A stretch of DNA of 26,771 nt, from IMG/VR virus record IMGVR_UViG_3300035670_001084, positions 1 through 26,771 of that record. One strand, 5' to 3'. Source of the stretch: a virus. Position 1 is the stretch's first letter. Every line of letters begins with the position of its first letter. Below, one piece after another: positions 3,001-26,771 of the stretch. The position numbers were made by a program, and so were the translations under genes. Below the pieces are notes generated by a model. The model made no database searches. It worked only from the letters and a program-made list of their open reading frames with translations, and had not been told where the DNA came from.

Positions 3001-6000
3001 AATTTAGTTCCAGAATCAATTAAAAATTATGCTGCTTCTGCTTTTGGCACAATTAAGGGATTGGTTCCTGATTCGATTAAGAATTATGCAAGCTCTGCTT
3101 TTTCTAATATGAGCGGGTATTTTTCAAATAGCTTTTCGCCAATGATAAAAGGATTCACAAGATCAATGAAAGCAGGAGAAGGTTTATTCTCGTCAATATC
3201 CAGAGGCGTAAAAGCACAATTCATGTCTATAACAAAAGGCAAATCAATATCAGAAATAGCAAGTTCTTCATTTGAAGCATTTAAGAAAAACGCTCCTGAC
3301 TCTATCAAGAAATATGCTTCTTCAGCATTTGGAAAAATTCAAAGTTTCGTTCCAGAATCAATTAAAAATTATGCAGGCTCAGCTTTTTCTAGTATGAGCG
3401 GTTATTTTTCTAATGCTTTTGCTCCCATGATATCTGGATTTACTAGATCAATGAAAGCAGGAGAAGGAATATTTTCATCTTTGTCTAAAGGCATAACAAG
3501 TCAATATATGTCTATAACAAAAGGCAGATCAATATCAGAAATGGCAGGATCAGCTTTCAATGTAATAAAAAATCAAGGATCTAAAGCTTTTTCAAAAATT
3601 CAAAATTTTGCAAGCAGTATGTTCAAATCCGCAAAAGAAAAAGGAGGAGGATTATTAGAAAAAGCAAAGGGAATCGTAGGAATTAAATCCACAACAGAAG
3701 AAACAAAAATACCGGGAACAGACGGATTGAAAAACGCAACGGATGCTGCTGGTTCGATCAAAGGTAGTTTTGAAAATGTAAAACAAGCACTTTCAAATTT
3801 AGCAGAAGGCATAAAAGCTTTTGCTAATAAAGATGTCCTTTTAGGAGCATTAAACTTAATTCCTGCTGGGGTTGGGTTAGTTGCTATGATTCCTGGTTTT
3901 GTTGGAGCAAAATTAGTCGAAAAATTAAATGGAGAAAAAATAGGAGAATCGCTAACAGGATTAGCAAATGGCTTGTCACAAATGGCCAGTGGGAAAGTAT
4001 TACTAGGATCTGGAGCTTTGGTTTTAGCTTCTTTGGCATTATTAGCAATGCTACCAGCACTTCCAGTTCTTGCGATTTTAGGATCTATGTCTGGACTTAT
4101 AACTTCTGGTTTAACTTCTTTGTCTGTAGGGCTTTCAACTTTTGGAGCAGCTGCGGCTAATCCGATGCTTTGGATGGGCATAGCTGCCATTGGCGCTTTA
4201 GGCATTGCGATGATACCATTTGGATATGCACTAAGTGCTCTTTCTCCATTAGTAATAGCCTTTGGATCAGCCATAAATGCAGCTTTTTCAGGAATAGGTA
4301 GCGTCATATCTTCTATTGCTGCCGGAATGACGATGTTCTTAGGAGCAGTAAGCTTAGAAAAAGCAGCAGGACTGGTTGCTGTTGCAGGTGGATTAGCAGT
4401 TTTATCTGCTGCCATGATAGCTTTTTCTGCCGCAACCGCTGTTGCTGGTTGGGTGAGCTTTTTTGGCGGCGATGGTGTTGTAAACAAAATAATGGAATTG
4501 GCGGCTGCTGGCCCTAATCTAAAAATATTTTCGGACTCTATAACTTCTATGTCGTCAGGCATTAAAGAATTTATAAGTCAATTAGCTGATTTGGGGAGTA
4601 TGGAAAAAAATGTAGATAAATTTATAGAAATTTCAAATAAATTATCATCTGCGTCTTCAAACATAAAGATTCCAGATAAATCTATAGAGTCAAACACAAA
4701 AATAGAACAATCAACAAGCTCGCTATTCAATGACAAAAATGGTCGCCCAGATCCCAATGGAATTATGTGGGTAGATCCAATGCAATTGGTAAATAGAACT
4801 GCTGGAGCAGGTGCTTTACAATCACAAGAGCCATCAGTGATAGCAACAACAGCACAAACAAATGTGGCTAACATTTCTGCTGAACCAGCAACAGCTGCAA
4901 TTAATAATTCTACTATTATGCAGACCTTGCCAACAAGTAAACCATTAGAACAAACGGTTTTACCAACTACTAACATTTCTGCTGAGCCAGCAACAGCTGC
5001 AATTAATAATTCTACTATTATGCAGACCTTGCCAACAAGTAAACCATTAGAACAAACGGTTTTACCAACTACACTAGAACAAAAAACAATCTCTCCAGAA
5101 ATTCAAGCAATAGATTGTTGTTGCGAAGCAAATGAAATTATAAATAAAGCATCAATGATGCCAGACTTAAGTGGTTTATTCTCTAGTATATCTTCTGGAC
5201 TAAAGTCTGCATTTGTTGAATTTCCAATGTGGCTAGGTGGAATTATAGCCTCAGGATTGAAATCTGTTTTTGTTGATTTGCCGGTTTGGTTAGGCGGAAT
5301 AATTGCGGGAGGTTTGAAGTCTATATTTGTTGACATACCGGTATGGCTGGGAGGTATGATAGCAACTGGCCTGAAGTCTGTACTTGTTGATATACCAATG
5401 TGGCTAGGCAAAACTATTGTTTCGGGATTAAAATCAATATTTGTTGATCTGCCAATGTGGCTTGGCGGCATGATTGCCTCGGGATTAAAATCAATATTTG
5501 TTGATTTGCCAATGTGGATTGGCGGAATGATAATAGGCGGAATCAAGTCTATATTTATTGATTTGCCAATGTGGCTAGGAAGCTTAGTGATTTCAGGAAT
5601 TAAGAAAATATTTATTGATCTTCCTATGTGGTTGGGCGGAATAATCGTCGATGGAATAAAATCTATATTTATAGATTTGCCAGTGTGGCTAATGTCTACT
5701 ATTGTTGGAGGAATAACATCTCTAATGGGAGCCATACCAGGAGCTATATACAATGCTCTGTATTGGGCCGCTTCTAAAGTAGGATTGGGATGGGTTGTAA
5801 AAAGTTTAGCTGGTGGCGGGGGAGGAGAAACAACAGCTGGTGGAAAAGAAGAGGGGATGCTTTCAAAAGCCGGTTCTACGGTTGCAAATGTTGCTTCTGG
5901 TGCTTGGAGCGGAGTAAAGTCTGCCGGGTCCGCAGTTGCAAATGCTGCTTCTGGAGCGTGGGAAGGAATAAAAGGATTTTTTGGATTTGGAAAAGAAGAA

Positions 6001-7476
6001 GTTTCTTTAGAATCAATACTGCCTTTGATGGCTGAATTTTATAAAGCTGGGGTTTCTGGTTCTGGCGTATTAGTTAGACAAGCAGAGAAGGCTGCGTCTG
6101 AAGAACTCAAATCTGCCGAAGCACTAACAACAAACTCTTTATTTAACGACAAAAATGGAGTTCCTAATCAAAATGGAATTATGTGGGTAGACCCGATGCA
6201 GTTGGTAAATCGTAACGCTGAAAATCTACAGCCTCAAGAACCATCTGCTTTGGCAATAAATAAAACCGAAACTCCTATGAGTGTCGTTGGACAATTAGAC
6301 CCATTGACAAAAACCACCCAAATATCAGCAGGATTTGGCGACATGCCTAATTTAGCTTTAGCAGGATCTGCTTTGGGGCTGGGTGCTCAAAAATCTAGAT
6401 TTAGCATGATGGAAGTTGGAGCAGATTTCACAGCACTTGGAGATGAAAATTTACTTTCTTTACTAAAGAAACCATTTGGTGGAATGGCACCTGCTCCGTC
6501 AAGTGCAGGTTCTGGCTTGTTAGGAAAAGGAGCAGAATTAACAAAAAATCTAACAGGTAAAATTACTTCTAATCCATTGGTTTCAAAAGCAACTGGAGTA
6601 GTTGGAAATATAGCCTCAAATCCTTTGGTTTCAAAAACACTAAGTAGAACCTTGCCTTTCTTGGGATTAGCGGCAGGAGGTGTTTCTGGAGCCATGCAAG
6701 CTAAAGAAACCGGTAGATCTACTTTAGAAGCGGGTGTGTTGGGAGCCATAACTGGAGATGCGAAAACTGGCAGCACCATGAGCAAATATCTTGGTGTGCA
6801 AGAAGGATCTACTACCGATAAGGTTTTAGGCGTTGGCGGTGCAGCGGCAACAGGAGCGATGACTGGGGCTGCAATTGGAAGCATAATTCCTGTTGTGGGC
6901 ACTGCTCTTGGCGCAGGCATAGGCGGTTTATTAGGAGGAGGAGCCGAATTATACAAATGGGCCACAGAGAAAAAAGTTCCTGAGACGCCAAAATCAGACT
7001 TAGAAAAATTAAATAATTTAAATGCATCAATAGATGGATCGCTAGCTGGAAGTCAAGATTTATTAAATAAACATGCGATTCCGATGGCAAGACCTGCGGA
7101 GGTAGAGGCTCGCCCATTAACAGAAGGAACTGCGGATGTTCAACCTGTGCACTTAAGAGACATTGGACAAACTATATTAAGAGAGAAAGCAAGTGCTAGT
7201 TCTGGAACTGGCAAGTTGCAAAGCGACGAATTAACAAGAATGGAAGAAACAGCATATAGACAAGTGGAAGAATTAGAACAAATAAAAGAAGGAATAAATG
7301 AGTTAGTGACGCTAATGAAACCAAGAGGCGGAGGAGGAATAGCTGGGCCTTCTAATCAGTTGCCAGGATCAACAAGAGATCCAAGAAGACCCATGCACTC
7401 CGCTGTTTTTGGAAAAATGAAATTTGGATACCCATCAGGAACGGCTAATAAAGACGTATTGAGAACAGGAGAATAG
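1..7476 (+). CDS. Tail tape measure protein (5' partial)
   Basis: The frame is open from the first base, and the residues before the GTG at 73 (PAAFSKFGKVFKDTRKGFGA) look like the same protein, so the true start is probably upstream of the window. At least 2,491 codons are present. Signs of a tape measure are great length, a position just before the hub genes, Gly/Ala-rich and hydrophobic helical stretches (about residues 1330-1500, counted from base 1), tandem internal repeats, and a GLAMLHQGEMVIPA motif at residues 707-720, a type often seen in phage tape measures. Known role: the protein fills the tail tube lumen, sets tail length and is ejected at infection. It contains a five-copy array of about 95 residues, a nine-copy 19-residue array, a recent 102-base tandem duplication, and similar Gly/Ala modules near both ends. 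No peptidase or lysozyme domain was recognised. The tail would be unusually long if length scales with the protein, which is inference. Confidence 0.9.
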   Translation, partial: PAAFSKFGKVFKDTRKGFGANQDSVSFSNWNSIEFYKKLRQSGSSIKEARDKVKEMGGSFYKPGTLLESFQKAGDVFVETITGKAGVISGAFAKASAFIATPIGQVLKKALGPAVVLLGGIKGAMEADSVQRTKAEGAILGVFTGGAKTGSFLSPTLGIEKGTVADKTLGVAGAAAWGAMAGAAFGTFFPPLMPVFAAVGAAVGAVTEIIKIVTEGTDILRNVFKPVQVVVDYIYFIFQDVYDILAGIVTLDLGRVFKGVFNAIGSTLALIPRLLIGFLETGLVGIPKLIMRSISMIWEIPRMLMQSILDGLSSLAENSWVGPIFKTLHDAFKALFDGFMAVWTPISEIFSGIYTVFNDLGVALFGASEGGGILAGAIWILQKAIWGLSYVISWILSPIILLTHVLGFVLKIVGALIKGIITPFQWLYDTLVGHSIIPDLVIAIVSWFAKLPVLIFKSLLAIPRKIGEAMSGIGSYLEGFKDIPIIGPMIAQIGNLVGFIGESIRLLSEGLSNIFNIIQGIFTLDPSKIWEGIKGIGSVIISSLSNVGSFLYDSITISLGGLGSFLLTSLKAAFIDLPTYIFNGFKSALEGIWDWIKSWIPGMKTVESAAGGYSENAAEQAATMAKEGPSTAHAIGGLAGAGADLLQLDVGEAASKAGLALKEGVYAAGENLKNAASSAWGGVKAVGSYLNPFNYFEEGTRKIEEPGLAMLHQGEMVIPADLTNKITAEGNGPFGAMEKSKELLSSPSKEFIGAASGAFVGSTMASPAVTIDIDETLLAKSIKKSFEFTKNLAKKIKNYAGSAFTGMGDYFSDAFAPLTTGFNRSMEAGEGIFSAMSRGIKGQYMSITKGKSISEIAKSAFYNIQNLVPESIKNYAASAFGTIQNLVPESIKNYASSAFSNISDGLSSAFSPMIKGFTTSMEAGEGIFSAMAKGITSQYAAINSGLSNAFSPMIKGFTRSMEAGEGIFSALSRGVTSQYMSITKGKPISEIVGSAFSSVKNLVPESIKNYAASAFGTIKGLVPDSIKNYASSAFSNMSGYFSNSFSPMIKGFTRSMKAGEGLFSSISRGVKAQFMSITKGKSISEIASSSFEAFKKNAPDSIKKYASSAFGKIQSFVPESIKNYAGSAFSSMSGYFSNAFAPMISGFTRSMKAGEGIFSSLSKGITSQYMSITKGRSISEMAGSAFNVIKNQGSKAFSKIQNFASSMFKSAKEKGGGLLEKAKGIVGIKSTTEETKIPGTDGLKNATDAAGSIKGSFENVKQALSNLAEGIKAFANKDVLLGALNLIPAGVGLVAMIPGFVGAKLVEKLNGEKIGESLTGLANGLSQMASGKVLLGSGALVLASLALLAMLPALPVLAILGSMSGLITSGLTSLSVGLSTFGAAAANPMLWMGIAAIGALGIAMIPFGYALSALSPLVIAFGSAINAAFSGIGSVISSIAAGMTMFLGAVSLEKAAGLVAVAGGLAVLSAAMIAFSAATAVAGWVSFFGGDGVVNKIMELAAAGPNLKIFSDSITSMSSGIKEFISQLADLGSMEKNVDKFIEISNKLSSASSNIKIPDKSIESNTKIEQSTSSLFNDKNGRPDPNGIMWVDPMQLVNRTAGAGALQSQEPSVIATTAQTNVANISAEPATAAINNSTIMQTLPTSKPLEQTVLPTTNISAEPATAAINNSTIMQTLPTSKPLEQTVLPTTLEQKTISPEIQAIDCCCEANEIINKASMMPDLSGLFSSISSGLKSAFVEFPMWLGGIIASGLKSVFVDLPVWLGGIIAGGLKSIFVDIPVWLGGMIATGLKSVLVDIPMWLGKTIVSGLKSIFVDLPMWLGGMIASGLKSIFVDLPMWIGGMIIGGIKSIFIDLPMWLGSLVISGIKKIFIDLPMWLGGIIVDGIKSIFIDLPVWLMSTIVGGITSLMGAIPGAIYNALYWAASKVGLGWVVKSLAGGGGGETTAGGKEEGMLSKAGSTVANVASGAWSGVKSAGSAVANAASGAWEGIKGFFGFGKEEVSLESILPLMAEFYKAGVSGSGVLVRQAEKAASEELKSAEALTTNSLFNDKNGVPNQNGIMWVDPMQLVNRNAENLQPQEPSALAINKTETPMSVVGQLDPLTKTTQISAGFGDMPNLALAGSALGLGAQKSRFSMMEVGADFTALGDENLLSLLKKPFGGMAPAPSSAGSGLLGKGAELTKNLTGKITSNPLVSKATGVVGNIASNPLVSKTLSRTLPFLGLAAGGVSGAMQAKETGRSTLEAGVLGAITGDAKTGSTMSKYLGVQEGSTTDKVLGVGGAAATGAMTGAAIGSIIPVVGTALGAGIGGLLGGGAELYKWATEKKVPETPKSDLEKLNNLNASIDGSLAGSQDLLNKHAIPMARPAEVEARPLTEGTADVQPVHLRDIGQTILREKASASSGTGKLQSDELTRMEETAYRQVEELEQIKEGINELVTLMKPRGGGGIAGPSNQLPGSTRDPRRPMHSAVFGKMKFGYPSGTANKDVLRTGE
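319..655 (+). repeat. Tape-measure Gly/Ala module, N-terminal copy
   Basis: This protein-level repeat contains GAKTGSFLSPTLGIEKGT and DKTLGVAGAAAWGAMAGAAF. It closely resembles a stretch near the C-terminus of the same protein (about 6631-6960), with the same order of motifs and similar spacing. Edges are approximate. The glycine-zipper-like GxxxG/AxxxG pattern suggests a membrane-active or tightly packed helical hairpin; that is inference. Confidence 0.7.
2392..3615 (+). repeat. Tape-measure array of ~95-residue repeats (five copies, some shortened)
   Basis: Units begin at about 2392, 2677, 2836, 3082 and 3367. A full unit is 285 bases and carries NYA-SAF, then F(S/A)PMIKGFTRSM(E/K)AGEG, then QYMSITKGKSISEI, then VPESIK. 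The second and third units are shortened and together span 405 bases. Inside the units the VPESIKNYAxSAF block repeats with a 57-base (19-residue) period, for example at 2593 and 2650. Some segments of about 30 bases are identical between copies, so duplication is fairly recent or is homogenised by recombination. Confidence 0.85.
4720..4797 (+). repeat. Dispersed tape-measure linker motif, copy 1
   Basis: This is a 26-residue block starting SLFNDKNG and ending MWVDPMQLVNR. It occurs again at 6136-6213 with only a few central residues changed. Both copies are followed by a Gln/Pro/Thr-rich linker, so each may mark the end of a helical block. Confidence 0.8.
4870..5073 (+). repeat. 102-base tandem duplication inside the tape measure gene
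   Basis: Two adjacent 34-codon copies run from 4870 to 4971 and from 4972 to 5073. They differ only at one internal synonymous site (GAA/GAG in AEPATAA) and at the last codon's third base (ACT/ACA). The encoded unit begins NISAEPATAAINNST and ends LEQTVLPTT, a Thr/Pro/Asn-rich linker without hydrophobic core. The high identity indicates a recent duplication. Confidence 0.9.
5200..5712 (+). repeat. Tape-measure array of nine 57-base repeats (19 residues each)
   Basis: Nine back-to-back 19-residue units follow the consensus (L/I)KS(I/V)F(V/I)D(L/I)P(M/V)WLGG(M/I)I. Every unit carries the P-(M/V)-W core, while third codon positions vary, so the array is older than the 102-base duplication just upstream. 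A single diverged relative (KAAFIDLPTYIFNGFKS) occurs near 1705-1760. The period equals that of the VPESIK repeats in the earlier array. Confidence 0.9.
6136..6213 (+). repeat. Dispersed tape-measure linker motif, copy 2
   Basis: This second copy of the SLFNDKNG...MWVDPMQLVNR block lies about 1.4 kb from copy 1 and is followed by another Gln/Pro-rich linker. The nucleotide sequences have diverged at many third positions while the protein is conserved, which suggests selection on the motif. Confidence 0.8.
6631..6960 (+). repeat. Tape-measure Gly/Ala module, C-terminal copy
   Basis: This copy contains GDAKTGSTMSKYLGVQEGST and DKVLGVGGAAATGAMTGAAI, matching the N-terminal copy at 319-655 motif for motif. 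It is followed by a glycine-rich hydrophobic segment (GTALGAGIGGLLGGG). The two copies lie roughly 2,100 residues apart in one polypeptide. Confidence 0.7.
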
Positions 7477-17859: not shown

Positions 17860-18111
17860 ATGATAAAATTAATAGAAATTAGAAGCTTAGATGGAGAAAA
17901 TCGTTTATTTATTGATAATCAATTATTTGATTGGGGAATAGACGAAGAAGCAATTGAACAAATAAAAAAAATAGAAAACGAAGAAGATTTACAAAAAATA
18001 AATGAAAACATAAAAGATTTTTTCTTGGAATGTTTGTCTTCTGTTGTTGGTAAAAAAATGAATATAAAAGAAGCTTATGAAGCAATTATTTCCGGGCAGG
18101 TTGATGTATGA
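17860..18111 (+). CDS. Small protein of unknown function (83 residues)
   Basis: Translation from the ATG at 17860 (MIKLIEIRSLDGENRLFIDN) begins just after the previous stop and gives a compact acidic protein. A longer in-frame extension back to 17767 would overlap the previous gene by about 90 bases and looks like read-through of the other frame, so it is not used. The C-terminal two thirds is predicted helical (EEDLQKINENIKDFFLECL, then NIKEAYEAIISGQ). It overlaps the SET-domain gene by four bases (ATGA). It may be a partner or chaperone of a neighbouring structural protein, but no family was recognised. Confidence 0.6.
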   Translation: MIKLIEIRSLDGENRLFIDNQLFDWGIDEEAIEQIKKIENEEDLQKINENIKDFFLECLSSVVGKKMNIKEAYEAIISGQVDV

Positions 18112-18587
18112 TATTAGTAGAAGAAAAAGATAATAGATTTTATATAAAAGAATCAAAAATACCAAATGCTGGACTAGGCGTTTTTGCAAATCAAGATATA
18201 AAAAAAGATAGTTTTTTAGAAATAATTGGAGTAATGGTCGATGCGAATTCGATCTCTGATCACTGCACAAGTTATGCAAAAAACTATAAATTTGCCGCAA
18301 ATTTTGCCGACAAATACGACAGACATATTGTTCCAATGGGATTTGGCGGAATAGTAAATCATACAGAAGATAAAAATCTTCAAAATGTAGAATTAAGATA
18401 CATTAAGCATTCGAGTTCAAATGCAGCAGCCGGTTCTGCTGTCTATTATTTTATCAAGGATGTTAAGAAAGATGAAGAAATACTTGGAAATTATGGACAA
18501 CTTTTTGAACTCAAGATGAACGAAGATAAATATTGGCAAATGTTTTTGGATCTAGAACTATATAATTTAAAACAATTGAGAAGGTAA
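18108..18587 (+). CDS. SET-domain protein (protein lysine methyltransferase-like)
   Basis: This 159-residue protein is a compact SET fold. Residues 20-41 read NAGLGVFANQDIKKDSFLEI, the opening 'G.GvFa...I.kg..i' element. GFGGIVNHTEDKN (78-90) supplies the N-H pair (84-85) of the cofactor-binding 'NHs..pN' element. DVKKDEEILGNYG (118-130) supplies the 'i..GEEi...YG' ending with Tyr129 as likely catalytic tyrosine. No pre-SET or post-SET zinc cysteines are visible. Known SET proteins transfer methyl from S-adenosylmethionine to lysine side chains. Its place in a four-base-overlap chain inside the fibre operon suggests a virion or fibre substrate, but a host target is equally possible. Substrate is not visible from sequence. 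Confidence 0.8.
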   Translation: MILVEEKDNRFYIKESKIPNAGLGVFANQDIKKDSFLEIIGVMVDANSISDHCTSYAKNYKFAANFADKYDRHIVPMGFGGIVNHTEDKNLQNVELRYIKHSSSNAAAGSAVYYFIKDVKKDEEILGNYGQLFELKMNEDKYWQMFLDLELYNLKQLRR

Positions 18588-18590
18588 AAA

Positions 18591-19409
18591 ATGCCAGATA
18601 TTAATAAAATAACAGAAGTGCTATATGATGGCAATCAACCATATCACGTTCACTACGATAATTTGCCACTTAAAAATATACTTACGAGAATCGACTTGGT
18701 TAATGCACAAGTTGATATAAATACAAACATATTACGAGGATGTGCTGGTAGTGTTGGAACCTTAAGTAACCGGTTGTCTGCCTCGATTGAAGATAATGGA
18801 AAACTAAAATCTTCTGCTGTGGATATTAGTCTTCATAATATAGGATATCATTCTGACGGTGTTTATGATGGCATAGAATATGTTAGAATGACAAAAGCAG
18901 AAAGAGACAAGCTAGAGACTATCGAATCTGAGTCTAACAAAATCGAAATTGAGATTGAAGACTCAGTTTCTTCAGAAACTCAAGTAGATCACGTTGTTAT
19001 TTATAATGGCTATGTAAGATTAAAATCATCAGATACAATCGCATTTCAATTTATAGCTCCAGACACAATAAAAGCTCATTCTAAATTTACTCTAGAAGCC
19101 GCTCATATTCATCATTATGAGATAGAACCTTCTTATTTAATTGCTGGATTTCCTGATTATATTAATTTCAAGACAACATCTGCAAACACAGCCTTTAGAG
19201 AAGGCAGCCTAAGAGTTTACGTTAATGGATTTAAATTAAATTCAATATCTCCTGTTAAGGTTTTGACAGGAGATATGAATCCTATGGTTTTAGAAAATTG
19301 GAAGGATTTGTATATTGCTTCTCAATCGCCAGAACAAGGCTTGTTTTCATTAAATTCAGCCATAACTTCCACTGATGTTATTTTAATTGATTTTGACCAA
19401 ACAATATGA
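18591..19409 (+). CDS. Fibre-associated virion structural protein
   Basis: This 272-residue protein has GAGAAGG upstream. The N-terminal half (LPLKNILTRIDLVNAQVDIN, then LSNRLSASIEDNGKLKSSAV and HNIGYHSDG) and the element EYVRMTKAERDKLETIE (about 95-111) match a pattern common in large-phage fibre or baseplate-proximal proteins. The second half is beta-rich: SSDTIAFQFIAP, AAHIHHYEIEPSYLI, then FREGSLRVYVNGFKL (about 203-217), which resembles the terminal beta domain of such proteins. It probably forms a short fibre or adaptor. It overlaps the following gene by four bases (ATGA). The exact family name was not recognised. Confidence 0.6.
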   Translation: MPDINKITEVLYDGNQPYHVHYDNLPLKNILTRIDLVNAQVDINTNILRGCAGSVGTLSNRLSASIEDNGKLKSSAVDISLHNIGYHSDGVYDGIEYVRMTKAERDKLETIESESNKIEIEIEDSVSSETQVDHVVIYNGYVRLKSSDTIAFQFIAPDTIKAHSKFTLEAAHIHHYEIEPSYLIAGFPDYINFKTTSANTAFREGSLRVYVNGFKLNSISPVKVLTGDMNPMVLENWKDLYIASQSPEQGLFSLNSAITSTDVILIDFDQTI

Positions 19410-19951
19410 ATGTGAATTTTGGATTTATAATACTTTCTCCCGAACACAATATCGGCGGTTTGAAAAATACGATGCGCTCAATAGAGGGCAACTATAAAAA
19501 AACTGAGTGCGTTTGTGTTGTACCTAAAGAAATAAAGAAAGAACAAATAAAAGAAATCAAAGAATTGTGTGATGTTTACAAAGGAGGACTAACATTAACT
19601 TCTTTGATAAATAAAGGATTTGAAAAAACAAAATGTGATTGGAACATATTAATTTTAGAAGGATCTAGAGTTCCTAAAAATTTTTATAAAAAATATGAAA
19701 TTTTTATTCAAAAACAAGAAGACATATTATATCCACTTATTGTAGAACACGACATTTATGGGTATGTTAAACACATATATGATAAATTTTATGACTGTAC
19801 AATCAATGGGATCTGTATAAATAAAAACTTTTTTAATAAAGTGGGAAAGTTATCAGAAAATCCTTTAGAAATATCTAGAAAATTTTGGGCCTTAGAAGCA
19901 AAAGAAAAAATGGCAAACTTTAAGACTATTTTGGGAATTAAAATTTGCTAA
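19406..19951 (+). CDS. Glycosyltransferase-like protein (GT-A fold, family 2-like)
   Basis: This 181-residue protein starts inside the previous stop (ATGA). The N-terminus (FGFIILSPEHNIGGLKNTMR, then ECVCVVPKE) resembles the first Rossmann-like strand and nucleotide-binding part of GT-A enzymes. Next comes LTSLINKGFEKTKCDWNILI with LEGSRVPKNFY (about 62-95), where a GT-A enzyme normally carries its D-x-D; here the segment is L-E-G-S and no clear D-x-D is present. The C-terminal NGICINKNFFNKVGKLSE with later FKTILGIKIC resembles the acceptor side. It is short for an active enzyme, so it may be a minimal transferase, a glycan-binding relative or inactive. Position among fibre genes suggests modification of virion proteins, which is inference. 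Confidence 0.5.
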   Translation: MNVNFGFIILSPEHNIGGLKNTMRSIEGNYKKTECVCVVPKEIKKEQIKEIKELCDVYKGGLTLTSLINKGFEKTKCDWNILILEGSRVPKNFYKKYEIFIQKQEDILYPLIVEHDIYGYVKHIYDKFYDCTINGICINKNFFNKVGKLSENPLEISRKFWALEAKEKMANFKTILGIKIC

Positions 19952-20487
19952 ATATTAAAAAATTGCCATCTTTTATATAAATTTATATTTTTGTCTTCAT
20001 TAACATGCATCAAATACTTTCTTAGGTCATCCCAATTTGAAAAAAACCAATCGTGTGGTATTGTGCCAAATAGCCAGTCGGGCGTGTGTTCTTTCCCTTG
20101 TTCTACGTGAATCAATATGGGCTTTTTAGAACGATTTGCCAAGGCAATTTCTTCATAAGTTCCGCAAGCATGATGTTCTATATTTAGATTAACAACAAGA
20201 AAATCACTTATATCCACCATTCGCAAGTCTACTGCGCGTATAGTTTTCATGATGTTGGCTAATTCATCATATTTTCGCTCTTTTCTTAATTTAATTTTAA
20301 TAGAATGAACTTCATCATCTTCCAAACCAACTCCAGTTGGCTTTTTAAGGGGATTAAAAACTTTAATTCCCAATTCCTGTAGGAACGGGGTTATTAATTC
20401 TCTCCATCCTGCTCCTCTGTCTGCGACCCTGTCTATAGCCCCAGCCAAATATACTCTTTGATTATTAAGTCTATTAAATTTTTGCAT
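19948..20487 (-). CDS. Nucleoside 2-deoxyribosyltransferase-like protein
   Basis: This 179-residue protein is the only clear gene on the minus strand. RVYLAGAIDRVADRGAGWRE (11-30), GIKVFNPLKKP (40-50), AVDLRMVDISDFLVVNL (85-101) and GTYEEIALANRSKKPILIHV (109-128) match the nucleoside 2-deoxyribosyltransferase-like fold: a beta-strand/AGA loop, an NP turn, a D-x-S-D region, then G-T-x-E-E with the likely catalytic glutamate at 112 or 113. Family members cleave or exchange N-glycosidic bonds of deoxynucleosides or nucleotides, in salvage or nucleotide-pool control. AAAAGG precedes the ATG. Its stop overlaps the stop of the glycosyltransferase-like gene by four bases. An isolated, oppositely oriented gene suggests a separately inserted and regulated accessory gene. 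Confidence 0.75.
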   Translation of the reverse strand: MQKFNRLNNQRVYLAGAIDRVADRGAGWRELITPFLQELGIKVFNPLKKPTGVGLEDDEVHSIKIKLRKERKYDELANIMKTIRAVDLRMVDISDFLVVNLNIEHHACGTYEEIALANRSKKPILIHVEQGKEHTPDWLFGTIPHDWFFSNWDDLRKYLMHVNEDKNINLYKRWQFFNI

Positions 20488-20573: not shown

Positions 20574-21227
20574 ATGTCAAGCGAAGAATTGTACGAAGAA
20601 GCAGTTAAATTAATATCGAAATCAGAAATTTCTAATAGGCACACTTTTTTTCAACTAAAACATTTTGTTTTAGGAAAAGAGCTTACTACACAAGCAAAAA
20701 TGCAAAAATGCCTAAAAGAAACAGAGGCTAGAGTAGAATCTATGAATAATATAATACTTAGCGTAGATGAAACGAATGACGACATTAAATTATTAGAATT
20801 AAAAATATTAAGTTTAGAAAAAAAGAAACCAAAAAATGACATAAATAAAGAGTACAAACAAATTCAAATAAGAAAATTACAAAGAAAAAAATCATCGCTG
20901 TTCAATTCTTTACACAATTTAAGAAAAAAATTAAAAGAAACAGAAGAAGAGATGGCATTTTTTATCAGTGCGTTCAAACAGTTAGAAAAAATAGAACCGC
21001 TCAAAAAATATGATGATTTAGAATCTAATCAAAATTTTTGGAATGAGAATTTTGGACAAGAATTACAATTAAGACTTTTATTACAAAAGCCAATAGATTT
21101 AGAACTTGTAAAATGCATATTGGCTCTTGATAAAGATTCGCCAATAAGAAAAGAAGTTGTAAATATGTTAGAGCAATTACAAAACAAAGCTATAGAGAAT
21201 AAAAAAACAATAGAGCAAAAGGGATAA
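20574..21227 (+). CDS. Coiled-coil protein of unknown function
   Basis: This 217-residue, highly charged protein is mostly alpha-helical. Residues about 40-140 are rich in Lys/Glu with heptad-like hydrophobics (LLELKILSLEKKK, LHNLRKKLKETEEEMAFF), fitting a long antiparallel coiled coil. The C-terminal part is a compact helical segment (FWNENFGQELQLRLLLQKPI, then CILALDKDSPIRKEVVNML). It begins the second plus-strand transcription block, one base before the first PKD fibre gene. The position suggests a fibre-assembly chaperone or a structural adaptor, but no family was recognised and there is no direct evidence of either. Confidence 0.65.
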   Translation: MSSEELYEEAVKLISKSEISNRHTFFQLKHFVLGKELTTQAKMQKCLKETEARVESMNNIILSVDETNDDIKLLELKILSLEKKKPKNDINKEYKQIQIRKLQRKKSSLFNSLHNLRKKLKETEEEMAFFISAFKQLEKIEPLKKYDDLESNQNFWNENFGQELQLRLLLQKPIDLELVKCILALDKDSPIRKEVVNMLEQLQNKAIENKKTIEQKG

Positions 21228-21228
21228 A

Positions 21229-22278
21229 ATGGCAAGAATATCTAGTTTAGATAACACATACACCACTGGAGATCTGTCTTCTTTTTCTCCAAATCCCAGG
21301 ACTTCTACTACGGATCCAGCAGAAATAGACACAAAAGACAGTCTTTATACTGTATCTAATAACGCGGAAACCAAATTAAGAACAGGCCTATCATATAATG
21401 GAAAATTTATTATTGTAGAAAATGCAGAATCTTTTCCAGAAAAGGGACTAGTTAGAGTTGGTCCGCCTCCAGGCGAAGAGGGAGCTGCTGAATTAATTTA
21501 TTACGGCCAAAGAACAAAAGATACATTTAAAGAATTAATAAGAGGATTTGCGGGATCGAGACAAAATCAATGGCCATCTGGTTCGTGGGCGACAAACGCT
21601 GTTACAGCAGAACCACACAATGCAGTCAAAGACGCAATTATAAATATCGAACAAAAAATAGGGCTATTAGAAAATCCAACAAATGGTAGTCTTCAACAAA
21701 GACTAAAAAGTTTAGAAGCAAGATTTTTAGCTCCCAAAGCGTCATTTAGAGCTTTCCCAAAAATAGGAAAGCCGCCACTAACAGTAAGATTCCAGAATTT
21801 TTCTGAAGGAGATGTTGTTAGATTTCTTTGGGATTTTGGAGACGACAGCCAAACAATAGAAAAAAGTCCAACGCACACCTACACTCAGCCAGGAGTTTAT
21901 ACTGTAAAACTAAACGTGATTACAAGTACCGGCGCCCAAGGAATATCGACAAAAACAAATTACATTGTTGTTTCTGACGATGAGTCTTCTGCGTTTTTCT
22001 ATTCTAATCTAACAGAAGGAATTTCTCAAACATCTGCTGATGTCTTGGGTATTAATCCAACGGAATTTAGATTTATAGATCAAACAGATGGAGACATAAA
22101 GCAAAGATTTTGGATTTTTGGAGATGGATCGGAGAATTTCGTAGAAAACGATCCCAACAAACATGAAGTCAAACATATTTATCAAAACAAAGGAGAATAC
22201 CAACCTTCATTATTGGTTGTTTTTGCCAATGAAAATCTCAAGAGAGTTTTCTTAACAAAAAAGGTGGTTGTATCATGA
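21229..22278 (+). CDS. Fibre protein with N-terminal module and two PKD domains
   Basis: This 349-residue protein has an N-terminal module (about 25-148: DTKDSLYTVSNNAETKL, then FIIVENAESFPEKGLVRVG, then AELIYYGQRTKDTFKELIRG, then EPHNAVKDAIINIEQKIG) resembling the starts of the next two genes. PKD domain 1 lies at about 168-248, with FLWDFGDDSQT and HTYTQPGVYTVKL. PKD domain 2 lies at about 253-348, with FWIFGDGSEN and HIYQNKGEYQPSLLV. PKD domains are beta-sandwich folds used for adhesion and spacing on surface proteins. No enzymatic domain is seen. It overlaps the next gene by four bases (ATGA). Likely role: short fibre or baseplate decoration that contacts the host surface. Confidence 0.75.
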   Translation: MARISSLDNTYTTGDLSSFSPNPRTSTTDPAEIDTKDSLYTVSNNAETKLRTGLSYNGKFIIVENAESFPEKGLVRVGPPPGEEGAAELIYYGQRTKDTFKELIRGFAGSRQNQWPSGSWATNAVTAEPHNAVKDAIINIEQKIGLLENPTNGSLQQRLKSLEARFLAPKASFRAFPKIGKPPLTVRFQNFSEGDVVRFLWDFGDDSQTIEKSPTHTYTQPGVYTVKLNVITSTGAQGISTKTNYIVVSDDESSAFFYSNLTEGISQTSADVLGINPTEFRFIDQTDGDIKQRFWIFGDGSENFVENDPNKHEVKHIYQNKGEYQPSLLVVFANENLKRVFLTKKVVVS

Positions 22279-24524
22279 TACCCGCTTCAAGCGAATATCC
22301 AAATAAATTTGACACAGACGATAATCTTTTTTTAGTTCATGATTCACTAAGAGTTAGACTGCTAGAAGATTACAATCCGGGTGACAAGAGCATATTTATT
22401 GAAGGAGATCCTACAATTATAAATAGATTTCCACCAACGGGAATCATCACTCTCACCGAACAGTGTAGCGATATAGATAAAAGAGCAGTCAGTCTTTACT
22501 ATTCTTCTAGAACGCAAAATTCTTTTGACAATTTAGAATTGCTTCCAGAATTTGAAGATGTAATAAAACCAAAAAAAATAACAAATGTAACTATGAATGT
22601 TCTTGACAAACATCATAATTACCTAAAAGACGCCTTGATTGCCGTTCAAAAATTTTTAGGAGTAAAAGATCAAACAGATTCTGAGCCTTTTGGAGAAACA
22701 ATAACCGGCAGATTAAATTTTCTTCAAAATTTAGTTTATAAACCAAGGGCCTGGTTCAGTATAGACACCAGACTAGGAATTGTTCCACTAGAAGTAAATT
22801 TTACAGAAGATAGCTATAGAAAAGGAAAAGGAGAAATAAAATATACATGGGCAACAAAGTTATCAACAGAAAATGAATGGAGCATCATAAGCTCAGCAAC
22901 AGACAATACATCTCAAACATACATATACCTAACTCCTGGAATCTATGATGTCAAATTAACAGTGTCTAATGACTTTGGAGAAGACACTGTCGTTTTTGAA
23001 AAAGCGATAACTGCAAAAATCTTTGCTCCAGAAGAAGCAAAAATAAATTTTATTCCAAAAACAACTCAAAAGTTTACAGAGGGAGATCCAATAAATGGGC
23101 CGCCCTATAATTCGTTTCCAAAGATAAGATCTACAACAAATACTTTTATAGACATAGAAATACCAGAAGGAGAAAACCTTTCAAATCCTGGTTATTCTTA
23201 TTCCGGCGAACTTTTGTCTGCTGGCAGTCCTATAGATCAAATTATTGAATACACCTGGGAATTGGGCGATGAATTGGTCCATTCCAATACAAGCTACACA
23301 AGAGCTTCATATTCAATAGGAGGATATTATGATTTGATTCTCAGAGTGGATACGGAATTTGGATCTTACAGAATAACAAAATATGAAAATTCTATAGACA
23401 TTATAGAAAATCAAAACGTTTGGTTTTTTAATTTAAAAAATGAAACATCCACAGACAGTGGCGAGTTAGAGTGTTGGGAATTTGGAATCATAGGAGAAAC
23501 ATTCAAAAAATTAGGAAATTCAACCATAGCATTAACCAGAAACAATTCTTTTCTAGATGCGTATTCAGATTCTCTATTCAACTCACAAACAGAATCAAGA
23601 GCAAAAAAAGAATTTTCTAAAAATGTCACATTTGCGCCACAAGGAACAATAGCGTCAGGAGATCGTGGAAACTCTTTGTTATTTTGGGCAAGCGGAGGCG
23701 TTTCTTTGCTTGATCAAGATATTAAAATAAGAAGATACAACGCATTTGACGATACGTATTTATCTTTGGACCCAATTCCAGATAGAACTTGGAATTGGGC
23801 CTCTTTAGTTTCTTCTAATTTTGTTTATTTTATACTTGGCCAATCAAATGATTCATTAATTAATACTAATAAAGCAAATCCTATTAGAACGGACTATAAC
23901 CTAACAACCACATCTGCATCTGATCCTGTTACTTTAAACATCACTAATTTTGAAAATGGAGCAGAAGAACTATTAGATTATCCTTCTTTTTTCAATTCAG
24001 AAGGAATTCCTACAAATGGATATTTTGCAACTTATAGGACAGCGTGGAAAGACTCCACAGGATACATCTTACGAAATTCTTCTGTTAATGAATTTTTTAG
24101 AATATCTGATTTTTATAAAACAAATGGAAATTTGTCTAGTCCCTACAACACTCTAACAAGACTGCCTGATATGTCGGGCGTAACCAAAACAGAAGGAGAA
24201 TTAGTAAACTTATCCACCGGTGTTTTCTTTTTCAATAACAGCGGAGAAATTTCCGCTTGGAATGATTTTTCCTTAACTTGGGAAATTGGAAGAGCAAATT
24301 CTTCTTCAATATCATTCCGATCTTTACAAGACAGTAATGTGTCCGGGTTTGATAATAAATCTAATACTTTATTGGCAACTTCAGACGGTGATAGATTGGC
24401 TTACTTAAGCTTTGATTACAGCAGAAATACATTTGTTAAATTTAATGGAACTGATCTTACTTTCAGTACAGCAGGATCAGGAGTAAGGCCTTTAGGAAAA
24501 CAACTAAAATTAGGGGTTTATTAA
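22275..24524 (+). CDS. Fibre protein with PKD domains and probable C-terminal beta-propeller
   Basis: This 749-residue protein starts within the previous stop codon (ATGA). The N-terminal module (YPNKFDTDDNLFLVHDSLRV through DKHHNYLKDALIAVQKFLGV) is a diverged copy of the neighbours' module. PKD-like domain 1 lies at about 157-250 (IKYTWATKLS, YIYLTPGIYDVKLTV); PKD-like domain 2 lies at about 256-378 (IIEYTWELGDEL, SYSIGGYYDLILRV). From about 380 to the end, repeating beta segments with spaced aromatic and Gly/Asp turns (NSLLFWASGGVSL, RTWNWASLVSSNFVYF, TGVFFFNNSGEISAW, NTLLATSDGDRLAYL) suggest a Kelch-like propeller. The propeller assignment is inferred from pattern only. It probably supplies a receptor-binding tip. 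Confidence 0.65.
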   Translation: MIPASSEYPNKFDTDDNLFLVHDSLRVRLLEDYNPGDKSIFIEGDPTIINRFPPTGIITLTEQCSDIDKRAVSLYYSSRTQNSFDNLELLPEFEDVIKPKKITNVTMNVLDKHHNYLKDALIAVQKFLGVKDQTDSEPFGETITGRLNFLQNLVYKPRAWFSIDTRLGIVPLEVNFTEDSYRKGKGEIKYTWATKLSTENEWSIISSATDNTSQTYIYLTPGIYDVKLTVSNDFGEDTVVFEKAITAKIFAPEEAKINFIPKTTQKFTEGDPINGPPYNSFPKIRSTTNTFIDIEIPEGENLSNPGYSYSGELLSAGSPIDQIIEYTWELGDELVHSNTSYTRASYSIGGYYDLILRVDTEFGSYRITKYENSIDIIENQNVWFFNLKNETSTDSGELECWEFGIIGETFKKLGNSTIALTRNNSFLDAYSDSLFNSQTESRAKKEFSKNVTFAPQGTIASGDRGNSLLFWASGGVSLLDQDIKIRRYNAFDDTYLSLDPIPDRTWNWASLVSSNFVYFILGQSNDSLINTNKANPIRTDYNLTTTSASDPVTLNITNFENGAEELLDYPSFFNSEGIPTNGYFATYRTAWKDSTGYILRNSSVNEFFRISDFYKTNGNLSSPYNTLTRLPDMSGVTKTEGELVNLSTGVFFFNNSGEISAWNDFSLTWEIGRANSSSISFRSLQDSNVSGFDNKSNTLLATSDGDRLAYLSFDYSRNTFVKFNGTDLTFSTAGSGVRPLGKQLKLGVY

Positions 24525-24538
24525 TATAAATACATATT

Positions 24539-26771
24539 ATGGCAATAGGATTTCCTCCACAACCAACATATCCGCTAGCTTTAGATTCTGACAGAACTCT
24601 ATTTGCAGTATTCAACACAAGTGAAGCAAAGCTTACAAAAGACAATTCTGCTTGGTCAGAAGAAATAGATATAGAACCTGTCAGTTCAGATAAACAAGAC
24701 ATATGGGCAGATAATGGATTCGCCAATATTTCTGGTGAGCTTTTTTATTACGACGCAGTTGAAAAAAATGAGAATGGAAAAGTATTTAAATTAAAAAGAT
24801 GTGCCAGAAATTTAGGAGGAAAACAAACAAAATTCAATAAGGCTGGGACTTGGGTGAGGGGTTATGTGATTGCAGAGCATCATAACCAAATAGTTGATGT
24901 TACGATATCCATAGAACAATATTTATTAGATCTAGAAGATGAAATAATAGAACTTGAAGAAGAGCCTATTTGTCTTGATGATATCAAATGCCCAGAAATA
25001 ATATTTGAAATTAACGAGCAGGATTCCCTAAACAATTGCGAAGGAATAATAATAAATTACACCATTACAATTAATGGAAATTATACAAATTTTAGATTAG
25101 ATTTTGGAGATGGCGAGTTTACAAACTCTAGCTCTCCAGGAAGTCACACTTATTCTCCAAATTCTAAAATAGATCCAATCATAACAATTAGCAATGATAC
25201 TTGTACGGTAATTCAAACGCCAATAGAAAGAACAAGTTCCACGGTTCCAGAAGAAACTCAAGAAGATACTACTTTTCAAATTCCGCTGCCTCCTCCTCCT
25301 GATTTTCCAACTCTTGAAATTCCAGACTGCCCATCGGTGACACAAGAATTTGATCTGCCTCAATTAATTATACCACAAATTGACATAGCTCCATTATCCA
25401 CGATACCAATATCTATAACGGTATCATTTACACCTCCTGAGATAAATATTCCTGATATAAATATAACTCCCTTAAGTTTTGACGGAAATATAAATTTTGG
25501 TCCCGCTCCTTTTGTTCCTACCTCTTTCTTTTTTGGGCCTGCTCCTGACATAAATTTACAGCCTGGATCTTTTGTTTTTGGACCTGCTCCTGACATAAAT
25601 TTACAGCCTGGATCTTTTGTTTTTGGACCTGCTCCCGACATTAATATTCAATCAGGATCTTTTATTTTTGGACCTGCTCCTGACATTAATATCCAACCAG
25701 GATCTTTTATATTCGGACCCGCTCCTTTGGTCGATTTCAATTCTTCTTTTAATTTTGGACCAGCACCCGAGGTTGATTTCAATGCCAGTTTTGATTGGGG
25801 AGATCCTCCAGATATAAACTTTAATGCTAGTTTTGATTGGGGAGATCCGCCTGACATAAACTTCAACGCTAGTTTTGATTGGGGAGATCCTCCAGATATA
25901 AATATTAATGCTAGTTTTGATTGGGGAGATCCTCCAGATATTACTATTAATTTTGATTTCAATTGGGGAGATCCTCCTGATGTGAATTTCAATGCTAGTT
26001 TTAATTGGGGAGATCCACCTGACATAAACTTTAACGCTAGTTTTGATTGGGGAGTGCCGCCTGATATTACTATTAATTTTGATTTTAATTGGGGCAATCC
26101 GCCTGATGTGAATTTTAACGCTAGTTTTGATTGGGGAGTGCCGCCTGATATTACTATTAATTTTAATTTTGATTGGGGAGATCCTCCTGATGTGAATTTT
26201 AACGCAACCTTTGACTGGGGAATTCCTCCTGAAATAGACTATAATGCCAGCTTTGATTGGGGAAATCCTCCAGATATTAATGCTAGCTTTGACTGGGGAA
26301 TTCCTCCGAATATCGACTATAATGCCAGTTTTGATTGGGGAAATCCTCCAGATATTAATGCTAGCTTTGACTGGGGAATTCCTCCGAATATCGACTATAA
26401 TGCCAGCTTTGATTGGGGAAATCCTCCAGATATTAATGCTAGCTTTGACTGGGGAATTCCTCCTGAAATAGACTATAATGCCAGTTTTGATTGGGGAAAT
26501 CCTCCAGATATTAATGCTAGCTTTGACTGGGGAATTCCTCCGAATATCGACTATAATGCCAGTTTTGATTGGGGAAATCCTCCAGATATTAATGCCAGCT
26601 TTGACTGGGGAATTCCTCCGAATATCGACTATAATGCTAGTTTTGATTGGGGAAATCCTCCTCAAGTGGATTACAATGCTAGTTTCGACTGGGGAAGTCC
26701 TCCAAATATAAGTTTCGACTGGGGCAATCCACCAAGTATAGATTCGAGATTCGATTGGGGAAATCCTCCTC
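24539..26771 (+). CDS. Repeat-shaft fibre protein, PKD-like plus FGPAP/DWGxPP repeats (3' partial)
   Basis: The frame is open from ATG 24539 to the right edge (744 codons) and the gene continues beyond. An in-frame stop at 24527-24529 limits upstream choices. No Shine-Dalgarno site is evident near the ATG, unlike most neighbours. The N-terminus (YPLALDSDRTLFAVFNTSEA through IAEHHNQIVDVTISIEQYL) is the shared fibre module. A PKD-like segment (about 165-225: YTNFRLDFGDGEF, SPGSHTYSP) follows. Then comes a Pro/Ile-rich stretch (about 240-318), then seven FGPAP units and about 25 WG-x-PP units. Repeat units consist of alternating short strands and Pro-Pro turns, so a beta-rich, probably trimeric shaft is likely by inference. 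No known fold was recognised for the repeat. Confidence 0.85.
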   Translation, partial: MAIGFPPQPTYPLALDSDRTLFAVFNTSEAKLTKDNSAWSEEIDIEPVSSDKQDIWADNGFANISGELFYYDAVEKNENGKVFKLKRCARNLGGKQTKFNKAGTWVRGYVIAEHHNQIVDVTISIEQYLLDLEDEIIELEEEPICLDDIKCPEIIFEINEQDSLNNCEGIIINYTITINGNYTNFRLDFGDGEFTNSSSPGSHTYSPNSKIDPIITISNDTCTVIQTPIERTSSTVPEETQEDTTFQIPLPPPPDFPTLEIPDCPSVTQEFDLPQLIIPQIDIAPLSTIPISITVSFTPPEINIPDINITPLSFDGNINFGPAPFVPTSFFFGPAPDINLQPGSFVFGPAPDINLQPGSFVFGPAPDINIQSGSFIFGPAPDINIQPGSFIFGPAPLVDFNSSFNFGPAPEVDFNASFDWGDPPDINFNASFDWGDPPDINFNASFDWGDPPDININASFDWGDPPDITINFDFNWGDPPDVNFNASFNWGDPPDINFNASFDWGVPPDITINFDFNWGNPPDVNFNASFDWGVPPDITINFNFDWGDPPDVNFNATFDWGIPPEIDYNASFDWGNPPDINASFDWGIPPNIDYNASFDWGNPPDINASFDWGIPPNIDYNASFDWGNPPDINASFDWGIPPEIDYNASFDWGNPPDINASFDWGIPPNIDYNASFDWGNPPDINASFDWGIPPNIDYNASFDWGNPPQVDYNASFDWGSPPNISFDWGNPPSIDSRFDWGNPP
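25496..25786 (+). repeat. FGPAP-type repeat array (first shaft section)
   Basis: Seven FGPAP cores occur. Four complete 45-base units lie at 25523, 25568, 25613 and 25658, with consensus SF(V/I)FGPAPDIN(L/I)QPG. Two 42-base units at 25703 and 25745 (SFIFGPAPLVDFNS and SFNFGPAPEVDFNA) are transitional and lead into the next array. A leading partial copy lies at 25496-25522. The 45-base copies at 25523 and 25568 are nearly identical. Confidence 0.9.
25787..26771 (+). repeat. DWGxPP-type repeat array (second shaft section, continues past edge)
   Basis: About 25 units carry the core F(D/N)WG-x-PP. From 25787 to 26248 all units are 42 bases (14 residues, for example SFDWGDPPDINFNA). From 26249 to 26638, 36-base and 42-base units alternate (SFDWGNPPDINA with SFDWGIPP(N/E)IDYNA). 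The last units are 42, 30, 36 and at least 25 bases long. Tryptophan, glycine and the second proline of the core are invariant in all units; the first variable position is D, N, I, V or S. Confidence 0.95.
26249..26638 (+). repeat. 78-base higher-order repeat, five copies
   Basis: Copies start at 26249, 26327, 26405, 26483 and 26561. Copies two and four are identical over 78 bases, and copies one and two differ at one base. A GAAATA variant (Glu-Ile instead of Asn-Ile) occurs at 26207-26248 and again 234 bases later in copy three, hinting at a third-order duplication of three 78-base units. Confidence 0.9.

Follow-up and report, generated by a model that had tools for sequence, protein, structure and literature searches.

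Huge phages are widespread in metagenomes, few of them are cultured, and the parts by which they contact their hosts are, to our knowledge, mostly unknown. The locus considered here, a stretch of 26,771 nucleotides representing positions 1 to 26,771 of the IMG/VR virus record IMGVR_UViG_3300035670_001084 (the window), ends inside a long open frame of short Trp- and Pro-containing units and raises the question of what kind of protein it encodes and whether its unit belongs to a characterised fibre or solenoid class. A preliminary description, made from the letters alone, had proposed a giant fibre shaft of possibly undescribed architecture. The repeat is real, and the protein is a member of a widespread, unannotated phage protein family under selection.

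The frame (24539-26770, plus strand) starts with ATG and extends over 744 codons without a stop up to the window end (ORF list). Its product contains 31 matches to the regular expression [FL]x[FW]Gx[AP]P, 25 of the form F-x-W-G-x-P-P and six of the form F-x-F-G-P-A-P; together with one variant core, I-N-F-G-P-A-P (residues 318-324), which precedes them, the total of 32 agrees with the early estimate of about 32 short units, and shuffling this protein 2000 times gave 0.0135 cores on average and never more than one. The Trp-Gly-x-Pro-Pro core, however, is not invariant as had been thought, because the first seven units carry F-G-P-A-P and only the last 25 W-G-x-P-P, and the array does not begin at 24539 but near 25490 (Table 1). 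Its spacing is mostly 14 residues with some of 12 and 15, as in the suggested 12-15-residue period, but one spacing of 10 widens the measured range to 10-15. The contig L004 (45,299 bp) shares 12,233 bases with the window at 0 differences and adds 217 codons, so that 961 codons with 47 regex cores can be read without reaching a stop; since window and contig both end inside it, 961 codons are a lower bound for an as yet incomplete gene. The 78-bp double unit (26 residues) recurs in 6.3 copies at 93% match (TRF, L004 11671-12171, identical to the window sequence), and a 39-bp unit follows in 11.7 copies in L004 beyond the window. The minus-strand open frames that cover the array (25652-26770) were dismissed as shadows of the repeat. 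Pro-Pro, PPP and DPPD-type motifs are EF-P-dependent stall sites; the W-type part of the window array contains 25 Pro-Pro pairs, seven of them within DPPD, and the L004 array 14 PPP.

Table 1. Positions of the array protein's parts and of its upstream neighbours in the window.
Feature	Position	Strand	Basis or remark
Conserved 217-residue protein, no Pfam match	20574..21227	+	homologue in 52/52 distinct loci with enough flank
PKD protein with the same N-module	21229..22278	+	homologue in 53/53 distinct loci with enough flank
PKD protein with N-module	22275..24524	+	homologue in 54/54 distinct loci with enough flank
N-terminal module (N-module)	24539..24871	+	many family-invariant residues; alignment A2, 23 sequences
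AEHHNQIVD segment, then helix with heptad-like spacing	24872..24964	+	A2; L037 model
PKD-like domain (LDFGDG)	24974..25234	+	A2 profile against PDB; L037 model; Foldseek
Pro-rich linker into array	25235..25489	+	sequence
Seven F-type units x-x-F-G-P-A-P, spacing 12-15	25490..25789	+	core listing
25 W-type units F-x-W-G-x-P-P, spacing 10-14	25790..26770	+	runs off window end; 16 more in L004
Higher-order repeat, 78-bp double unit	26209..26709	+	TRF

Among the W units of L004, the internal pattern is most regular in the 19 that are fourteen residues long, where the offsets -8, -6, -4, -2 and 0 from the Trp are hydrophobic in 100, 100, 95, 100 and 100% and the offsets -7, -5, -3 and -1 in 0% of cases, the nine alternating positions being followed by G-x-P-P-x. 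When all 41 W units of L004, shorter and longer ones included, are considered, the values for -8, -6, -4, -2 and 0 are 56, 71, 76, 100 and 100%, and offset -7 is hydrophobic in 27%. The alternation of hydrophobic residues between the cores, as first described, is thus near-perfect over nine positions but a property of the 14-residue form, since it weakens over the complete set. In this form it supports the proposed unit of a predicted β-strand followed by a Pro turn. At the fixed residues F, G, P and P, pairwise codon comparison among the 41 units gives differences of 0, 0 and 46% at bases 1, 2 and 3; with changes confined to the third base, it is the protein and not the DNA that is conserved, a sign of selection on the protein. 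Four of six pairs of relatives gave a usable array dN/dS of about 0.06, 0.12, 0.14 and 0.20, bearing in mind that repeat alignment can inflate array dN. Three of these ratios lie above both flanks, and that of L098/L099 (0.061) lies slightly under the N-terminal part (0.067); in the pair L081/L087 the array is saturated. The proteins of L070 and L071 show no substitutions and a single 11-residue gap, which may be a biological or an assembly effect.

Relatives were detected on 38 viral contigs by an N-terminal query, and a C-terminal profile confirmed 93, of which 80 were kept, the two sets overlapping. Among all fetched sequences, 41 distinct complete proteins (differing in their last 170 residues) range from 644 to 2048 residues with a median of 849. 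Contigs L005, L007 and L008 gave one match each by DNA pattern, and a genome scan returned two loci, the full relative L129 and a short match over the PKD part in L130; the 25-kb contig of L129 is recorded as part of a Neisseriaceae MAG and is probably a phage contig. Matches to Escherichia phage 186 were discarded as chance, the query being compositionally biased. Seven IMG/VR contigs with relatives (251, 254, 323, 340, 343, 381 and 533 kb) and LR756511 (595 kb) exceed 200 kb, and these homologues on phage contigs above that size, together with the baseplate genes in the window, are what a huge-phage tail module should display. The common anatomy comprises the N-module, the AEHHNQIVD segment with its helix, the PKD-like domain, the Pro-rich linker, the array, a closing segment and, outside the window, a C-terminal domain of ~180 residues with IPxxIxL steps and conserved cysteines at its end (alignment A1). 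Both ends are conserved, and the middle varies in its unit and ten-fold in length, from 155 to 1579 residues when arrays are cut by rule. Most rows have a main period of 10-14 residues, L040 one of 5 and L013 one of 9/18, several short arrays having no clear period; Ser/Thr account for 9-30% and hydrophobic residues for 25-45% of the arrays. Among the literature matches listed, none treats the family in its title or at the start of its abstract.

The N-terminal part can be subdivided with different degrees of clarity. The N-module, originally termed fibre-type, is real and common to the two upstream PKD proteins (A2 against the 21229-22278 protein: hhalign 97.9%, E 3.6e-13; against the 22275-24524 protein: 87.0%, E 4.1e-6), but it matched no described fibre anchor. 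In L034, L037 and L040 it contains an inserted GGSGY-type domain of about 70 residues matching baseplate wedge and virion PHROGs. The subsequent helix (194-217 in the L037 model, low pLDDT) is a possible coiled coil. A PKD-like domain ahead of the units is supported by the A2 family profile, whose best match among the PDB chains is ColH (E 4.8e-4), by pLDDT values of 67-86 in blocks 231-300 of the L037 model and by Foldseek (PrtV PKD1, probability 1.00, TMt 0.67). As this Foldseek match has an E of 0.1 and stands in the second row behind an unrelated chain, we restrict the label to "PKD-like"; Pfam returned no PKD in the window protein at E 0.1, and none of the eight relatives scanned reached the curated PKD cut-off (best L042, 24.3 bits versus 27). 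Of 58 family rows, 50 have a cap-like motif ahead of the array; it is absent in that form from the window protein.

The origin of the W-G-x-P-P unit might be sought within the family itself. Of 55 distinct proteins or fragments with at least 230 residues (four shorter fragments excluded), 41 end their array in a closing segment, Φ-x-[W/F]-x-x-P...C-x-Φ-x-Φ-x-C, 36 with Trp and five with Phe; a looser pattern detects a Trp unit at the array close in 12 of the other 14, leaving two without it (L113, L116). The unit is therefore not unique to the window phage, a related W/F-x-x-P unit closing the arrays of its relatives. Arrays with at least four W units occur in eight of 58 rows, all belonging to one clade of 10 rows (support 97/95), whose other two members are L039, with an array cut short, and L102, without such an array. 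Judged from position and tree, the simplest reading is that the closing unit of the family was multiplied in the window's clade. Among the forms that this highly plastic repeat takes across a large family, the window unit is one local variant, W-G-x-P-P looking like an amplified closing unit.

Alternatively, the W-type array could be homologous to the 14-residue Trp repeats of KVP40-type gp15, which would place it in an already known but uncharacterised class of tail repeats; we consider this doubtful. Phrog_6079 ("tail protein"), the sole PHROG to match the array (E 1.7e-8, residues 475-562), also recognises gp15 repeats from two Vibrio phages (E 1.3e-8 and 9.1e-6). BLASTP against F86 gp15 aligns the repeat part, which contains 21 Trp, and the local alignment of the array with gp15 scores 216, far above 60 gp15 shuffles (36±6.5, maximum 54) and compared with 92 for reversed gp15, but common composition and period inflate such scores. 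Both gp15 proteins resemble the array in their C-terminal Trp repeats with a Trp spacing of mostly 14 and in Ile/Val at -8, found in 13/16 and 8/8 units. Position -2, always hydrophobic in the window W units and also hydrophobic in F86 gp15, is however Thr in 4/8 units of 1.081.O, and the two gp15 C-termini contain 0 and 1 Pro-Pro pairs. What is shared is thus the profile and a Trp period near 14, and not the gp15 N-terminal domain or the neck context: gp15 is a different protein encoded in the neck gene block, whereas the window gene lies on the baseplate side with its own N-module, and its unit can be accounted for within its own family as an amplified closing unit. In L048 (MG592456.1), positions 2904-3097 inside the gp15 coding repeat are annotated as "CRISPR spacers", a call on a 14-residue protein repeat that is likely false.

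The gene order around the array is conserved. Upstream in the window, Pfam and PHROGs identify a Phage_base_V spike, gp25-like, J-like (Pfam below cut-off, phrog_219 1.3e-29), P2 I-like and tail-collar N-terminal proteins, and these baseplate genes end a few kilobases ahead of the array gene. The downstream genes, read from the relatives because the window stops before them, begin with an MptE-like homologue, present in all 64 distinct loci at a median distance of 3 bases. Its assignment is weak: PF01973 was found in 18 of 30 members scanned (of 62 rows) at E≤0.01 with a best value of 6.4e-7, the first member reaches 23 bits versus a cut-off of 34.6, and no PDB relative appeared at E 1. PF01973 is a family linked to Maf flagellin transferases; among the matches listed, the abstract starts on Maf do not contain the word DUF115. 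Further downstream follow a GT9/heptosyltransferase-like gene in 37 of 59 distinct loci and a Volactin-family actin in 57 of 59 (L086:14839-15843, PF25216 E 1e-72). The window offers several additional observations. A SET-domain protein (18108-18587, PF00856, E 4.5e-9) lies within the tail gene block; counted over redundant sets, its homologues occur in 24 of the 119 loci fetched, and those of a nucleoside 2-deoxyribosyltransferase-like gene (19948-20487, minus strand) in 51 of the 77 loci whose flank is long enough. The conserved 181-residue protein at 19406-19951 appears glycosyltransferase-like by eye, a reading left unproven because Pfam gives DUF7198 only (0.008). The product of 1-7476, a probable tape-measure protein, shows by eye two internal repeat families, ~20-residue LKSIFVDLPMWLGG units and longer GFTRSMEAGEGIFS blocks.

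Database searches agree with the initial impression that the unit is not a recognised fibre fold. Neither Pfam and PHROGs (window protein and eight relatives) nor NCBIfam (P0003 and two relatives) returned a confident fibre or solenoid family, the matches being confined to PKD-type domains, the inserted N-module loop, low-complexity extensin, cuticle and porin families, phrog_6079 and three weak PHROGs; PDB sequence searches with P0003 and the profiles A1, A2 and A4 gave nothing at E≤0.001 except ColH. In the AlphaFold2 model of full-length L037 (mean pLDDT 44.8) the array reaches about 42-59, and the PKD-like region alone is good. The C-terminal 420 residues of L081, a relative with the same class of unit as the window, were modelled with the array (21-170) as a solenoid of pLDDT 67-77, in which every 13 residues hold a pair of short strands placed at I-E and F-N ahead of the Trp, and with a C-terminal domain of pLDDT about 40-51. 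A disordered prediction, which would have spoken against a fixed architecture, was thus not obtained for the L081 array, but its solenoid is not trustworthy on account of the known AlphaFold2 bias for repeats, perfect repeats yielding confident yet unrealistic solenoids as reported by Pratt et al. (PMC11795689). Foldseek with the L037 and L081 models found no PDB match at E≤0.001, nor a BFVD match for the C-terminal model, and reached no better than E 0.23 against solenoids; the best VIA-align partner, a PL3 pectate lyase (Z 7.5, rmsd 3.5, 144 residues), is within the range which the tool calls common. The array fold could prove new.

Taking gene context and unit pattern together, we lean with modest confidence towards a virion rod, a tail fibre or baseplate appendage of a huge contractile-tailed phage lineage, in which the array would form a β-structured shaft. 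Its placement at the tail or baseplate is suggested by the baseplate and tail genes upstream and the invariably adjoining MptE-like homologue downstream. In this scenario, the N-module probably docks the rod to the tail beside the two upstream neighbours with the same module and the PKD-like domain might act as a spacer. Each unit would contribute a nine-residue strand, hydrophobic side in and polar side out, plus the G-x-P-P-x turn, and the number of units would set the shaft length. Whole units would be gained or lost, as suggested by L070 and L071 differing by exactly one 11-residue gap. The conserved C-terminal domain might cap or oligomerise the rod or join a partner. Against this scenario count the conserved C-terminus itself, unlike the usual hypervariable receptor tip, the unit lengths from 5 to 15, for which one common rung geometry is hard to picture, and, as far as predictions can tell, the low pLDDT of the L037 model and of the L081 C-terminal domain. 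That the rod represents a new fibre architecture, with a shaft of 5-15-residue β/Pro units of ten-fold length range between conserved ends, multiplication of the closing unit and MptE-like modification, seems to us unlikely.

The constant MptE-like neighbour, the GT9-like gene and the Ser/Thr content of the arrays could also fit a glycan-carrying surface scaffold, in which a β display surface would be modified at Ser/Thr or Asn by the neighbouring enzymes in the manner of flagellin or autotransporters. Autotransporter heptosyltransferases, whose substrates include the adhesins TibA and AIDA-I (PMC4358343), provide a precedent. Four groups of putative glycosyltransferases are reported for the moraphages, an aquatic jumbo lineage (PMC12619734). 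The enzymatic role is however predicted from the weak MptE-like match, every W-type array locus checked lacks the GT9-like gene (among them L082, L087, L088, L090, L098 and L099, which have ~10 kb of downstream sequence), and such enzymes may target the host surface or DNA instead, so that we regard this scaffold as improbable. The same low probability is attributed to a tail-surface hair or neck whisker in place of a baseplate fibre: length plasticity would suit hairs, and jumbo phage CBB possesses a hairy tail with hairs of 119.3 nm whose genes its authors could not pin down (PMC5259590), but the gene is located a few kilobases past the baseplate genes, and tblastn of the relatives' N- and C-terminal parts against 50,697 phage records, which do not necessarily include CBB, retrieved LR756511 only. 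A flexible Pro-rich spacer without fixed fold, to which the low pLDDT of full-length L037 and the Pfam matches of the 5-residue L040 version to Extensin_1 (2.7e-15; 57 bits, cut-off 105) and of L010 to Extensin_2 (21.1 bits, just over the cut-off of 20.8) would point, is very unlikely in view of the hydrophobic content of the arrays, the strictly alternating hydrophobic positions within those window units that have 14 residues and, subject to the repeat bias, the array pLDDT in the L081 model.

The rod-like protein in its conserved gene block is a concrete target. The fixed ends of the family and its natural series of unit and array lengths would allow tests of how far a β-repeat tolerates change, and the repeats may serve for testing structure predictors. 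In comparison with known systems, the collagen pattern of Gly at every third residue is not found, one or two Gly occurring per 10-15-residue unit, and no collagen family appears in the Pfam output for the window protein. Single-chain β-solenoids such as pectate lyase and pentapeptide repeats share the two short strands per unit with the L081 model, a likeness limited by the Z and E values and the model bias described above. Triple β-spiral shafts of the adenovirus and reovirus type are built of units of about 15 residues with alternating hydrophobics and a Gly/Pro turn. Unit size, alternation and turn are thus shared with the window array, but a 15-residue repeat ill fits the 5-, 10- and 11-residue units of the family, and Pfam and PDB sequence searches returned no such shaft. 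The nearest described repeat appears to be that of KVP40-type gp15, with uncertain kinship to the window array. The protein encoded on LR756511.1, an unannotated 595-kb genome of an uncultured phage, differs in its Cys-rich units (FDCISFCxPPS) and single W unit, but resembles the window protein in an N-module 48% identical over 118 residues, a PKD-like FGDG motif, Pro-containing 11-residue units and a C-terminal domain of 35% identity.
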